A DNA stretch of 64,000 nucleotides from Hymenobacter canadensis (GTDB lineage Bacteria > Bacteroidota > Bacteroidia > Cytophagales > Hymenobacteraceae), in NCBI RefSeq assembly GCF_027359925.1, contig NZ_CP114767.1, positions 620,001 to 684,000 of the forward strand, written 5' to 3'. This document shows, piece by piece, positions 2,905 through 10,206 of the stretch (position 1 is its first letter; each line of letters opens with the position of its first letter). The translations under genes and the position numbers were made by a program. The notes beneath the pieces were generated by a model. The model saw nothing but the letters and a program-made list of their open reading frames with translations. It did not search any database and was not told where the DNA came from.

Positions 2905-3036
2905 GGCTGAATGAACGATGTAGAGACGCAATATTTTGCGTCTCGTCGTTGCTGATGCTGTTTGACTGAACGACAAGGTTCCGACCGTTCAACGACGAGA
3001 CGCAAAATATTGCGTCTCTACATCGTTCATTCAGCC
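2905..3036. repeat. Perfect 47-bp inverted repeat with nested palindromes (GAGACGCAA family)
   Basis: Arms at 2905-2951 and 2990-3036 are exact reverse complements over 47 bp, around a 38-bp centre. Each arm also contains its own near-palindrome, GAGACGCAA...TTGCGTCTC, so it can fold alone as well as with its partner. It begins 6 bases after the TatD stop. A second copy lies at 50333-50435. Confidence 0.95.
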
Positions 3037-4517: not shown

Positions 4518-4641
4518 CCGGTCCGGCGGCTCTTTCAGCCGTCGGGCCGGTCGTTGCGTGAACGGGGGGGCGAAACGTCTGGAGATGAGCAACGGCAGCG
4601 TACGACGACCGGCCCGACGGCTGAAAGAGCCGCCGGACCGG
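4518..4641. repeat. Perfect 37-bp inverted repeat beside the restriction gene
   Basis: Arms 4518-4554 and 4605-4641 are exact reverse complements over 37 bp (outer end CCGGTCCGGCGGCTC), with 50 bases between them. The right arm ends 8 bases from the stop of the restriction-modification gene on the minus strand. It may act as that gene's terminator or be a small mobile repeat. I see no second copy in the window. The rest of 4397-4648 holds no gene that I can support. Confidence 0.9.
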
Positions 4642-4648
4642 GGGCCAT

Positions 4649-7600
4649 CTACGCCGCGTAGGCGCCTTCCTCGGTCTGGCGGAGCAGGCTGAGGGCGGTG
4701 AGCGTGTCCAGCAGGGGCTGCACCTTTTCCGGGCGGGTGCGGCGGAAGCGGGCGGCTACCTGGGCGGCCGTTACCGACTGGCCGGCCTGCTGCACGGCAT
4801 CCCGCACGGCCTGCATCTGCTGGGCCAGCTCCGTGGGCCAGGGCTGGGGGCCGGTGGCCTCGGTGGCCGGGGCCACCTTGGCGGCGGTGGCGGGCAGGGC
4901 CAGCGCCGACTGCTGCAACTCGGGGGCCTGGTAGGCGGGGCGGAGGTAGCGCACGTGGCCCGCCAGTTCCTCCTGGGCGCGCTCGTGGTTGAGGCGCACC
5001 AGGCGGGTGAGTATTTCCGCGTCGGGGAGGTTGGGGGGCCAGTTGTAGGCGGCGGCTACGGCGGTATCGAGCTGCTGGTGCAGGCTCAGGACCACGGAGG
5101 CCAGGCCCTGCTGGTTGATGGTTTGCTCTTTGGCCGTGGTGAGGGGCTGGCCGGCGCGCAGCTTCTCCACCACGTTGTAGAGGTCGGTGAGGGTGAGGGT
5201 GGGGTGCTGGGTTTGCTGGCGCTTGCGGTGGGCGTCGAGCTGTTCGGCCAGCTCCCGGATGCGCGCCTGCTGCTCCGCCGTGGCCGCCGGGAAGGGGAAT
5301 TTTAGGAAACAGTCACTGTGATTGTAGGTAGCATCATTGCCTACACCAAGCCAGCCACCAGCCGCCGCTGCCCAGACGGTATGGATTCGGCTCGAAAGGA
5401 CACCTAAAGCCAATGCGTCATTCAGTGCAAATACAACAAGCTTCTAATCTGCGAGCGTGTTTCCAGGTAGAAAGCTGAAAATCCGGTGTCTAGCGGTTCG
5501 AGTAGTGACGATGAAGCGCGGTAAATTTTCTAAAGCTGGCCGGAAGCTGGCACGAGGTTCACCAAAGGTCCACCACTTCCTACGATAAGACTCGCGGTTA
5601 TTCTGATCACGTTCAGGTTTTACACGCTCATAAACGTGCTGGAAAATCTGAGGGTATCTATCAAGAATGGCATCAGTTTCTAGACCAAATAAGTCTATGG
5701 CTAAAAGACCTCTTGATTTTTGGGAAAGGTCACGGCCGTTGACATAAGGACGAATATGCTTTTCTAAGCCGGGCAAGGAGCCCAGACCCAAAGCTGCAGC
5801 TTCCTCTTCAGTTACCATGAAGCCAGCGCCATAAAGCCCTACGCCTACGTTTGCTAAGCCAGTGTTTGCCTTCAGCGTTTGAGCTTGATTCAAATCTGCG
5901 CCGACAGTTAGATCAGCATTGATTTTGCCTTCCTGAACTGCTAATTCAACATCACTGCTACCATCATCGACAGGCTTTTCCGCTTCGACGCTAAACAGAG
6001 TCCCGGACACTTCACCTGCTACAGCAGCTGTCATAGCAATTCGTACCGAAGCGCCGTTTGCTGCATCTACCCAAGGATGGTCAGGAATAGCGAAAATCAG
6101 CGAAAGAGGCTTAGTCGCGTCTTCTAAAAAAGGCTGCGTAATGCGACGGTTAAAGCTCTGTGTAATGGAGTTCGTTGTAATAAAGCCAAACCGTTCTGTG
6201 TGGTTATTCTGAACGGCGCGGGCCGCATTATACCACCAGTACATTACCAAGTCGGCAGATTCCGGAATCGTGCCTTTGTAAGCTTTGCGAAGCGCCTCTA
6301 CGTACCCGTCACCAAGGGAGTTACGCATGGCCTTATCACCTAAAAACGGCGGGTTGCCCACGATGAAATCGGCCTGGGGCCACTCGGCGGGCTGGGGGTT
6401 GGGGTAGTCGAGGACGGGCGTGCGGGCGGTTTCGTCGGGCACGGGCTGGCCGGTGGCGGGGTGCAGCTTGGTGGTGCCGTCCCAGCGCGTCACGGGCTGG
6501 CCGTGGGCATCGAGGCGGGGCGTGGGCGGGTCGTGCTGCAGGGCCGCATCCTGCTGGCGGATGTTCTGGTACTCGTCCAGCAGCGGCTCGCGCAGCTCGG
6601 AGGGGCCGTAGGTGCGCAGGTGCCACTGCAGGTAGCCGATGCGCAGCACCACGTCGGCAATGGCGGCCGCGCGCGGGTTCAGCTCCAGGCCCAGCAGCTG
6701 GTGCGGGCTTACGGTGGTTCCTCCCCCCAATTCCAGCAGGCCCGTCTGGCCGTAGCTGTTGATGGCGGCCAGCACTTCGCCTTCCAGCCGCTTGAGGTGT
6801 TCCAGCGTCACGTAAAGGAAGTTGCCGGAGCCGCAGGCGGGGTCCAGGATTTTGAGGCTGGTGAGGCGGGTGAGGAAGCGCACCAGCTCGGCGCGGGCGT
6901 CTTTGGGCTGGCCTTCGTCGAGGCGGCGGGCGGCGGCGGCCTGGGCGGCGGCCCACTCCCGGCGCAAAGGTTCCAGCACGGTGGGCAGCACCAGCCGCTC
7001 CACGTAGCGGCGCGGGGTGTAGTGGGCGCCCAGGCTGTGCCGCTCCTTGGGGTCGAGGGCGCGCTCCAGCAGCGTGCCGAAAATGGCCGGCTCCACCTCC
7101 GTCCAATCCGCCTTCGCCGACTGCAGCAGCAGCTCCGCCTGGCCGGCGTTCAGAGGCAGGGCGGTGGCATCGTGAAACAGCTTGCCGTTGAAGCGCCGCA
7201 GCCGGGCTTTCAGGTCCGACGAGAAGCCGCCGGTGTCCATGGTGCGCCACAGGTTGGTGAGGGCGTCGGGCAGAAACTCCAGCAGCTCCGGCGTGCCGTA
7301 CTGGCTCAGCATGCCGGTAAAGCTCTGCTTCGGAATCAGGCCCACATCTTCCGAAAACATGGTAAACAGGCAGCGCATCAGGAACTGCGCCACCACGTCG
7401 GGCGCGTGGCCGGCGCGTTCCAGCTGCTCCGAGAGTTTGGCCAGGCGGGCGGCCAGTTCCCGCGTGACGCGGGCGGCGCGGCGGCTGAGGTCCAGCTCTT
7501 TCGGGTCGAGGAAAATCTGGCGGAGCATGGCCCGCGTTTTCTCATCGGCCAGCGCGGCCAGCGGCAACCGGAACTTGGTTTGATCGGGAAACGGCACAAA

Positions 7601-8098
7601 CGAATCCCCGACGCCGGCAAAGTTGCTGTATACGTCGAGGCAGAAGCCCACGTCGGCCACCAGCACAAACAGCGGGCGGGGTTCCTCGGGCGGGAGGGCG
7701 CGCACGTAGCCGAGGGCCTGCTGGCGGGCGGCCTGCATCATTTCGGCCCACTTGGCGGAGCCGCGTACGGCGTGGCCCTTGCGGCGCTTGGCGGGCTCTA
7801 ATCCCAGCTCGGCGCGTTCCTGCTTTTTCTGCTGGTCGGCGGTGTCGGTGCCCTGCTTGGTTTCCAGCACGAAGCAGCCGCGCTTATACAGGTCGATGCG
7901 GCCGGTGCTTTTCTTGGGGCCGTCGTTGAACTGCACGGCGCGTTCCAGCACGTACTGGTCTTGGGTGGGGTCGTCGGTGGTGGGGTCGGGGCGAGGTACT
8001 TCCAGCAGGTCGCAGAGGTCTTGCAGAAACAGGCCGTAGTTGGCGCGCTCCGCGCCGCCGGAGTTTTTCCAGCGGGCTTCAAAGTCGGGGTAAGTCAA
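4649..8098 (-). pseudogene. MmeI-like type IIG restriction-modification enzyme, split by an in-frame TAG
   Basis: One reading frame of 1150 codons, starting at ATG 8098 and interrupted only by a TAG at 5446-5444 (codon 885). The upstream part (5444-8098, 884 residues) holds a PD-(D/E)xK-like nuclease site (Asp69, Glu79-x-Lys81), a helical spacer, a class I SAM methyltransferase with DPACGSGNF near residue 420 and NPPF near 585, and the start of a target-recognition region. The 234 or so residues after the TAG continue the family pattern (LGVLSSRIHTVWA, LGVGNDATYN, FPFP) and end in a coiled C-terminal region. Intact relatives both cut and methylate DNA from one chain. The stop removes the end of the recognition domain, so I infer an inactive gene, or one restored by readthrough, tRNA suppression or reversion. 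A TTG at 5413 could start a separate C-terminal fragment. Base composition is uneven: about 5300-6335 is clearly AT-richer than both flanks. Confidence 0.8.
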
Positions 8099-8251
8099 AG
8101 CGGATAGGGGCTAGGGGATAAATCGGGCGGGGAAGATAGGGAGCGGGCGGGAAAACTGCCGGTGCCCGCCGCGTCGGGCAACCTGATTTCATTACTTTTA
8201 GCCTCGTCGCGAAGTGGCTCAGCCCCGCACTCTACTGCCTTATCGTCTTTA

Positions 8252-8932
8252 ATGAAAATCCTGCTGATAGAAGACCATCCGGAGCTGGCTCGGAGCATCG
8301 TTGCCTACCTCACCCAGGAGCATTATCTGTGCGAGGTGGCCGCCACCTTCGACGAGGCCCGCGAAAAGCTGATTCTGTTCACCTACGACTGCGTGCTGCT
8401 CGACATCATGCTGCCCGACGGCAACGGCATCAACCTGCTTAAGCTGCTGCGCAAAGACGGCGTGGAAAGCAGCGTGATTATCATTTCGGCCCAGAACGCC
8501 CTGGATTTCAAGCTCACCGGCCTCAGCGAAGGCGCCGACGACTACATCACCAAGCCGTTTCCGCTGCCCGAGCTGCACGCCCGCATCAAGGCCGTGATGC
8601 GCCGCCGCAGCCCGCACAAAAGCAACGTGCTGACCTTCCTCGACCTGACGGCCGACCTGGAGTCGATGGAGTGCCGCGTAAACGGCAAGCTGCTGAGCCT
8701 CACGCGCAAGGAAACCAACCTGCTGCTCTACTTCATCAACAACAAAGGCCGCATGCTGACCCGGCAGGCCATTGCGGCCCACCTCTGGGGCGACTACACC
8801 GACAACCTCGACAGCGTGGACTTCGTGTACCAGCACGTGAAAAACCTGCGCAAGAAAATCACGGATGCCGGCGGCAAAGACTACATCAGCACCGTGTACG
8901 GGCTGGGCTACAAGCTAAACGCGGCCGGCTAG
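8252..8932 (+). CDS. OmpR-family response regulator
   Basis: A 226-residue two-domain regulator. The receiver domain has the acidic pocket (E7/D8), phospho-acceptor Asp51 in LLDIMLPDGNG and Lys101 in ITKPF. The C-terminal winged-helix DNA-binding domain (about 130-226) ends in the typical STVYGLGYKL. The start is the ATG at 8252, which gives the standard MKILLIEDH opening. The stop overlaps the GTG start of the histidine kinase by one base, so the two are co-translated and probably partners. It is divergent from the restriction-modification gene, with about 150 bases between them. The target genes cannot be read from the sequence. Confidence 0.93.
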   Translation: MKILLIEDHPELARSIVAYLTQEHYLCEVAATFDEAREKLILFTYDCVLLDIMLPDGNGINLLKLLRKDGVESSVIIISAQNALDFKLTGLSEGADDYITKPFPLPELHARIKAVMRRRSPHKSNVLTFLDLTADLESMECRVNGKLLSLTRKETNLLLYFINNKGRMLTRQAIAAHLWGDYTDNLDSVDFVYQHVKNLRKKITDAGGKDYISTVYGLGYKLNAAG

Positions 8933-10206
8933 TGAAGCTCAACCACCGCTACACCCTGGCCTACGCGGTTATCACGCTGTTCGTGCTGTCGGTGGGGTTT
9001 GCTATCGTGTACGGGGCTATGTCGCGCAGCGTCACCCAGACCACCATCGGCAAGCTGCGCCACCTCAACGAGGTAGTAGCCGCCCAGCTCCGTAGCGGCC
9101 GCGACTATGCGGGCCATCCGGCGCGGGCCAACGTGCGCATCCGCCCGCTGGCGCCCTCCGATACCGTGGCCCACGCCCAGCTGGTGCAGGTGCGGCCGGA
9201 GTGGGACCCGGAGCTGCAGTCGGCCGTGAACGTGGTGCGGCTGAGCACGTATCCGCGCATCGGCGGGCAGCGCTACCACCTCACCAGCCGGGCCGTGGTG
9301 GTGATGCCCAGCGACGAGTACCTGACGGGCATCGTGCTGGTGTTTGCCTGGACCTTCGTGTTTCTGCTGGCGCTGGTGGTGATTCTGAGCGAGGTGATTT
9401 CGTGGTACATCCTGAAGCCTTTTAACGCCATTCTGCTGAGCATCGAGCGGTTTCAGCTCAGCCAGAAAACCACCATCGGCCTGCAGCCCAGCCGCACCAA
9501 GGAGTTCAACGTGCTCAACGACTTCCTGATGAAGATGACCAGCCGGGCCCAGAGCGACTACCAGGGCCTCAAGGAATTCTCGGAAAACGCCTCCCACGAG
9601 CTGCAGACGCCTATTGCCAGCATGAAGGCCAAGATTGAGCTGCTCATGGACTCGGAGCTGAGCGAAAAGCAGCTGCTCATGCTCACCACCATGCACGACG
9701 AGCTGGAGCGCCTGGCCAAAATCAATCAGTCGCTGACGCTGCTGGCCAAGCTGGAGCACTTTGAGTGGGAGCCCGCGCCCCTCACCGACCTGAGCCGGCT
9801 GGTGCCCGCCACCGAAGCCGCCTTCGCCGACCTGGCCGAAATGAAGGGCCTGCGCACCACCCAGCAGATTGCGCCCGGCGTGCGCGTGCCCCTGGACGAG
9901 TCGCTGGCCCAGCTGCTGCTCAACAACCTGTTCAGCAACGCCATCCGCCACAACCTGCCCGGCGGCGAAATCCGGGTGCTGCTCTCCGCCACCGAGCTGC
10001 TGGTGGAAAACACCGGCCACGCACCCTCCGTGCCGGTGGCGGAGCTGTTCGGGCGCTTCAAGAAAGGCAACGCCGCGCTGGATTCCATCGGCATCGGCTT
10101 GGCCATCGTCAAGCGCATCAGCGAGCTGTACAGTCACCGCGTCGGGTACACCTACGCCGACGGCTGGCACCGCATCCGGGTGGTTTTTGCGGCGGCCGGG
10201 GAGTAA
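8932..10206 (+). CDS. Membrane sensor histidine kinase
   Basis: A 424-residue partner kinase of the preceding regulator, starting at a GTG whose first base is the last base of the upstream TAG. Transmembrane helix 1 (about residues 8-30) is followed by an extracytoplasmic sensor segment of about 105 residues, helix 2 (IVLVFAWTFVFLLALVVIL), a HisKA domain with the phospho-accepting His222 in ENASHELQTPIA, and a HATPase domain with the N box (NNLFSNAIRHN) and G box (GIGLAIVKRIS). The layout matches RprX/CusS-like kinases. The signal is not identifiable. Confidence 0.92.
   Translation: MKLNHRYTLAYAVITLFVLSVGFAIVYGAMSRSVTQTTIGKLRHLNEVVAAQLRSGRDYAGHPARANVRIRPLAPSDTVAHAQLVQVRPEWDPELQSAVNVVRLSTYPRIGGQRYHLTSRAVVVMPSDEYLTGIVLVFAWTFVFLLALVVILSEVISWYILKPFNAILLSIERFQLSQKTTIGLQPSRTKEFNVLNDFLMKMTSRAQSDYQGLKEFSENASHELQTPIASMKAKIELLMDSELSEKQLLMLTTMHDELERLAKINQSLTLLAKLEHFEWEPAPLTDLSRLVPATEAAFADLAEMKGLRTTQQIAPGVRVPLDESLAQLLLNNLFSNAIRHNLPGGEIRVLLSATELLVENTGHAPSVPVAELFGRFKKGNAALDSIGIGLAIVKRISELYSHRVGYTYADGWHRIRVVFAAAGE

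Follow-up and report, generated by a model that had tools for sequence, protein, structure and literature searches.

The DNA analysed here is a 64,000-nucleotide stretch of Hymenobacter canadensis (the window; NZ_CP114767.1, positions 620,001 to 684,000), in which a long minus-strand reading frame is broken by one TAG. The question was whether this is one gene that has lost its function, and whether the shortened product would be harmful to the cell. The frame at 8098-4649 (minus strand) was translated. It comprised 1,150 codons, and in-frame stops occurred only at codons 885 and 1,150; the inner stop is codon 885 because the upstream product counts 884 residues. The translation confirmed the initial annotation, which described a single frame of 1,150 codons with one TAG at 5446-5444. 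The features of the locus were as follows.

4649..8098, minus strand: MmeI-like Type IIG/IIL restriction-modification gene with 1,149 sense positions including the interrupted codon; TTG start
5447..8098, minus strand: 884-codon upstream piece with nuclease, helical spacer, methyltransferase and most of the recognition domain (Pfam)
7856..7894, minus strand: nuclease catalytic residues D69, E79 and K81 (alignment of relatives)
7814..7849, minus strand: residues 84-95, the array site of sister genes, without an array here
6818..6844, minus strand: methyltransferase motif I, DPACGSGNF
6344..6355, minus strand: methyltransferase motif IV, NPPF
5249..6331, minus strand: exchangeable recognition-domain segment, residues 590-950
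5444..5446, minus strand: in-frame TAG, codon 885, opposite MmeI Asn773 (alignment to 5hr4)
4649..5443, minus strand: 264-codon downstream piece, still open, encoding the last stretch of the recognition domain plus the C-terminal part (PDLC03627)
4651-4649, minus strand: terminal TAG of the enzyme gene (translation)
4518..4641, strand not applicable: perfect 37-nt inverted repeat with 50 nt between the arms, just 3' of the enzyme gene

Identity and domain layout of the interrupted gene

The upstream piece matched the Pfam families MmeI_N (residues 5-228, E 1.4e-23), MmeI_hel (236-308) and MmeI_Mtase (400-689), and the scores of MmeI_hel and MmeI_Mtase were above the Pfam cut-off. In the downstream piece, the tail of MmeI_TRD was found at 23 bits, below the cut-off of 27. 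The PADLOC Type IIG model PDLC03627, which has 1,136 positions, matched the upstream piece with positions 3-869 and the downstream piece with positions 871-1136 (the latter E 9.9e-89), so one residue is replaced by the stop and the frame is unchanged. Since one family matches end to end, the 1,150-codon frame is not a chance open reading frame. The profile match of the gene to the MmeI structure (PDB 5hr4) had an E value of 3e-55. The MmeI-like identity proposed earlier was supported by the Pfam matches and this alignment, and the continuation of PDLC03627 across the TAG bore out the proposal that one gene is cut by one stop.

The nuclease residues D69, E79 and K81 were invariant in 40 aligned relatives; the catalytic residues of MmeI are D70/E80/K82 (PMC4833311). 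The gamma-type adenine methyltransferase motifs DPACGSGNF and NPPF share a chain with the helical spacer. The recognition domain and the C-terminal part are not in one uninterrupted chain, as the TAG at codon 885 intervenes. MmeI (PDB 5hr4) likewise combines an N-terminal D-E-K nuclease, a helical spacer, a gamma-type methyltransferase, a recognition domain and a C-terminal part in one chain, but the window gene is about 230 residues longer (1,149 vs 919), is interrupted in the recognition domain and encodes a predicted enzyme. The gene derives from the MmeI-like family, but its product as read is an incomplete member. The structure prediction with the TAG read as Q gave a mean pLDDT of 62 and a pTM of 0.33, and was set aside.

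A DNA search gave one place only for this sequence. The codon aligned with the TTG start of the enzyme gene was GTG or TTG in 28 of the 29 loci checked, drawn from 49 related loci by the condition that the match started at locus base 6001 and extended as far as the start codon; a damaged start codon was thereby ruled out. Non-ATG starts are near universal in the enzyme family (the same 28 of 29 loci, among L002-L047) and may hold enzyme expression low. Homologs ending at the stop and followed by a separate C-terminal gene, an arrangement raised in the initial annotation, were absent from the best 120 homologs, the shortest of which had 975 residues when the window's own 884-residue reading frame (P0014) was left aside. 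Full-length homologs and the continuous PDLC03627 match ruled out that two genes are normally encoded apart.

Position of the stop and variation of the recognition domain

In the profile alignment with 5hr4, codon 885 was opposite MmeI Asn773, within a gap-free block running into the conserved GLLSS stretch of MmeI. TRD-C of MmeI consists of residues 746-825, base pair 3 is specified by Glu751 and Asn773, and a figure legend gives 12 recognition-domain residues as contacting bases (PMC4833311). The determinants reading later base pairs lie 3' of the stop. The chance of a stop striking one of the 12 base-contacting residues among 1,149 codons was near 1%; as this is a single case, the position on a base-contacting column was taken as coincidence. 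In place of the stop, all 121 aligned relatives (119 homologous proteins together with L029 and L081) have an amino acid, whose identity varies (N 40, D 39, G 12, H 10, A 7, Q 6, others 7); Q was found in all five relatives most similar to the window across the recognition segment.

The recognition domain of this enzyme family varies far more than the backbone. The median identity to relatives was 80.5% for residues 1-575 and 56.5% for residues 590-950. The copy in G049 showed 96% identity to the window gene over residues 1-523 and 66% over residues 565-1148. The G+C content of residues 590-950 was 0.50 between flanks of 0.68 and 0.72, and dropped to 0.45 in sliding windows. The dip recurred in 12 relatives and therefore characterises the segment rather than the window copy. 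Diversification of the recognition domain is known in the MmeI family (PMC4833311). The two proteins most similar in the recognition segment, P0001 (88.4%) and P0004 (82.8%), were both full length. P0001, from Hymenobacter sp. 5414T-23, had 89% identity over the whole length and, unlike the window copy, is uninterrupted. P0003 from H. perfusus had 83% identity over the whole length and is also uninterrupted, with a quite different recognition segment.

Origin and consequence of the stop

The window gene was most likely inactivated by one nonsense mutation, probably recent, by which methylation and restriction were lost together and the cell was not endangered (probability about 0.85). A single nonsense mutation at codon 885 would truncate the enzyme inside the recognition domain. 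The resulting 884-residue product would retain the nuclease and methyltransferase motifs without the remaining recognition domain and the C-terminal part. Modification and restriction would then fail together, which would make the loss safe. One recognition domain serves both nuclease and methyltransferase in MmeI-type enzymes (PMC4833311), and truncation should therefore abolish both activities and be safe rather than dangerous. For the fused enzyme Cj0031, frame loss was predicted to abrogate both activities at once and to lower toxicity (PMC4889913). The shared recognition domain and the Cj0031 prediction argue against the danger to the cell that had been raised for a truncated product unless it is inactive. 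The sequence shows the position of the stop, the family, the domain order, the intactness of the remaining gene and the mosaic recognition domain; the loss of both activities, its recency and the fixation of the allele we infer. Taken by itself, the window gene is one further decayed restriction-modification gene, with an ordinary nonsense allele of a familiar type. It is at the same time a clean case of why a fused enzyme gene should be able to gain a single nonsense mutation without harm to the cell, as modification and restriction fall together.

The age of the loss was examined in the remaining sequence. One stop and zero frame changes were found across 1,149 codons. The backbone showed 0 departures at 297 near-invariant sites, although the test is weak, since the close relatives P0001 and P0003 likewise showed 0. 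The window copy had 0 private backbone residues, against a median of 6. These counts were made on the 109 rows of at least 1,095 residues among 120 (119 proteins and the window), with L029 and L081 left out. The absence of another lesion, of private backbone residues and of departures at conserved sites are signs of recency. A non-synonymous excess on the window branch relative to a sister was found in two of three comparisons (window 12:14 vs sister 4:25, p 0.016; 12:12 vs 24:66, p 0.046; 8:12 vs 27:52, p 0.61). The greater non-synonymous change would fit an older loss. The recent inactivation that the initial annotation gave as one option stays probable.

A lone substitution in an otherwise intact gene also resembles a sequencing or assembly error, in which case the real gene would be intact; but the window sits in a contig of 4,532,152 bases, in an assembly of 4 contigs rated 100% complete, and such an error is improbable. 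The 884-residue protein P0014 sits on a contig of equal length and is not independent evidence for the TAG. A reversible on/off state, with a mixed population or frequent reversion toggling the gene at codon 885, is about as improbable. Switch-like arrays do occur in sister genes, but at a different site; the window gene has no such array, and the periods that Tandem Repeats Finder (TRF) listed for the window were 15 and 21 and no others. The region 5380-5520 around the TAG is also without a direct or inverted repeat of at least 12 nt, and reversion of a point mutation is slow. The earlier suggestion of such a state at the TAG was therefore not borne out.

Readthrough of UAG, which would yield some full-length enzyme, is less likely still. 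The rest of the frame is intact, and one tRNA of this genome has an anticodon loop of six bases readable as CUA. Against this, no other tRNA gene has a UAG anticodon, the terminal stop of the enzyme gene is itself TAG, and TAG is the commonest terminator of the 47 long mechanical open reading frames of the window (23 TAG, 13 TAA, 11 TGA). Nothing requires the readthrough that had been offered as an option. Just as doubtful is a decoding of codon 885 by the odd tRNA, under which the enzyme would be made only upon suppression and its DNA target would be set by the residue delivered. The least likely reading is that the truncated protein, or both pieces jointly, is active, perhaps with an altered target. 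The specificity of the Helicobacter Type IIG enzyme JHP1272 shifts by frameshift near an additional C-terminal recognition domain (PMC3936762), and a TTG at 5413 could initiate a 254-residue C-terminal piece of the window gene. The regular and additional recognition domains of JHP1272 are, however, separate (PMC3936762), whereas the window stop lies inside the sole domain, opposite Asn773, and everything 3' of it is lost.

The odd tRNA belongs to a pair located outside the window (L198; G000:C1:2446790-2446942, minus strand). The two adjacent tRNAs have unusual anticodon loops of 6 and 8 bases, the six-base loop being the one readable as CUA. No canonical UAG-reading (CUA) tRNA was detected by ARAGORN among the 50 tRNA genes of the genome. 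Of 120 genus genomes, 9 gave a strong match to the pair and 3 more a weak partial one; G051 and G068, the remaining genus genomes whose enzyme gene has a lone TAG, gave no strong match, which also argues against readthrough. The loop of the first tRNA differed in length among the nine genomes: four had 6 bases, three had 7, and one each had 8 and 9; the 7-base loops read CUA once and CUC twice. The loop of the second tRNA had 8 bases in all nine. As the anticodon loops vary so freely, selection for decoding looks unlikely. A conserved protein of about 450 residues was encoded just 5' of the pair in eight of the nine genomes (in two frames in L206); in the ninth the contig ends, so only the end of the protein is present. 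This protein had no Pfam, NCBIfam or PADLOC match above cut-off, and 1,572 homologs were found among 7,998 scored.

Lesions and repeats in sister genes and in the neighbourhood

The enzyme family was matched in 94 of 120 genus genomes. Among the matches listed, 77 copies in 62 genomes were examined, leaving out short fragments and matches of about 33-36% identity. Lone stops were found in three of the 77 copies, and every one was TAG: the window gene, L029/L067 of G051 (codon 238) and L081 of G068 (codon 46), the columns of the latter two being mostly Gln. Outside the genus, the Spirosoma copy L011 has a TAG at codon 395 in a column that is mostly Glu, with an identical reading in the G175 copy, and in G571, which is 71% complete, a TAA immediately precedes the catalytic ETKQ motif. 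Plain lone stops at codons 46, 238, 395 and 885 ruled out a programmed stop at a fixed site. The recurrent lone stops look like ordinary repeated loss of a restriction-modification gene. Frame changes were found in the genus copies L070, L108, L136 and L137. A sister gene in G059:C47 (L143/L144) is broken near residue 427, and about 18 kb separates the two parts.

The family context is of greater interest than the window gene. Perfect tandem arrays of 7-, 8- or 11-bp units were found just after the catalytic ETKQG in 14 of the 77 genus copies, in 13 Hymenobacter genomes (L066, L109, L110, L124, L125, L130, L131 and L136-L142, all outside the window). Eight copies had a period of 8 bp, four of 7 bp and two of 11 bp, none divisible by three. 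Nine distinct units occupy this one site; were the period independent of the frame, all nine would miss a multiple of three with a probability of about (2/3)^9 = 0.03. The value of (2/3)^14 = 0.003 for the 14 copies ignores relatedness. The arrays had no stops in any of the three frames, and were absent from 14 loci of other genera.

Ten arrays were assembled through, and four (L124, L140, L141 and L142) touch contig ends. Three of the ten (L066, L109 and L130) were in frame, close to the one-third expected under random phase; seven (L110, L125, L131, L136, L137, L138 and L139) were out of frame. L109 was counted as in frame because its N-terminal frame continues for 1,114 residues, its out-of-frame flag being a regular-expression artefact. 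Downstream of the array, L110, L125, L131 and L138 are open to the end in one frame, L136 and L137 have a second frame change, and L139 is cut by a contig end. A separate methyltransferase product in the out-of-frame sisters was set aside as judged from the stretch that extends from the last stop before the GHA.RG motif to that motif, in which only L125 (1/7) has a start codon.

G016 and G055 have the array unit and its flanks in common, with 10 and 3 copies of the unit. These are different species, so the difference in copy number shows turnover and not clonal switching. The tree, built on 74 copies, required 8 changes of the array label, and well-supported branches forced at least 7 of these; within-gene recombination could inflate the count. 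The label was still more clustered than in any of 500 shuffles. The tree held 74 of 76 rows; L139 and L111 were too short, and L079, L082, L143, L144 and L147 were excluded as duplicates or split copies.

The results suggested that the array-bearing Hymenobacter sisters are very probably switched by slipped-strand mispairing, that is, by phase variation. The window copy is not part of this group; as it has no such repeat, it is not a member of the phase-variable Type IIG group. The sisters resemble cj0031 of Campylobacter jejuni and JHP1272/HP1353-HP1354 of Helicobacter pylori, fused nuclease-methyltransferases with repeat-driven frame loss (PMC4889913, PMC3936762). In cj0031 the tract is present in some alleles only (PMC4889913), as are the arrays among the Hymenobacter sisters. 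The repeats of cj0031 and JHP1272 are homopolymer tracts, whereas those of the sisters are 7-, 8- or 11-bp units inside the nuclease region. Among the open-licence papers that the searches listed, none dealt with phase variation in Hymenobacter. If confirmed, the arrays would extend on/off control of methylation and phage defence to a genus only distantly related to Campylobacter and Helicobacter.

Palindromes were seen at another site of the family. The genes in G385 (L228) and G372 (L229) carry perfect palindromes with arms of 31 and 36 nt, a one-base centre and a central in-frame TAA, at about residues 54-58 and thus 5' of the catalytic motif; the core is common to both and the arms differ. 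A palindrome at residues 54-58 occurred in only these two of 103 loci scanned. In 19 further loci, L241, L245 and L249 were the G385/G372 genes again, and L242 had an unrelated palindrome with 18-nt arms. L064, one of the 103 loci, carries a palindrome with 16-nt arms without a mapped residue.

A tRNA-Ser gene adjoins the window gene; in 6 of 49 related loci a copy of it lies no more than 6 kb from the enzyme gene, which indicates a chromosomal site common to some relatives. Also in the neighbourhood, a response regulator (8162-8932) lies next to a histidine kinase (8671-10206, plus strand), the latter matching PorY at 355.2 bits against an NCBIfam cut-off of 350. A link between the enzyme gene and these two-component genes was rejected on the five of nine relatives that had a long match (G049, G051, G052, G110 and G050), where the matching DNA was not beside the enzyme gene. 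DNA resembling the inverted repeat at 4518-4641 was found elsewhere in relatives such as G050. A dispersed palindromic repeat of about 110 bp lies at 2913-3029 of the window and recurs many times, on both strands, in the relatives searched.
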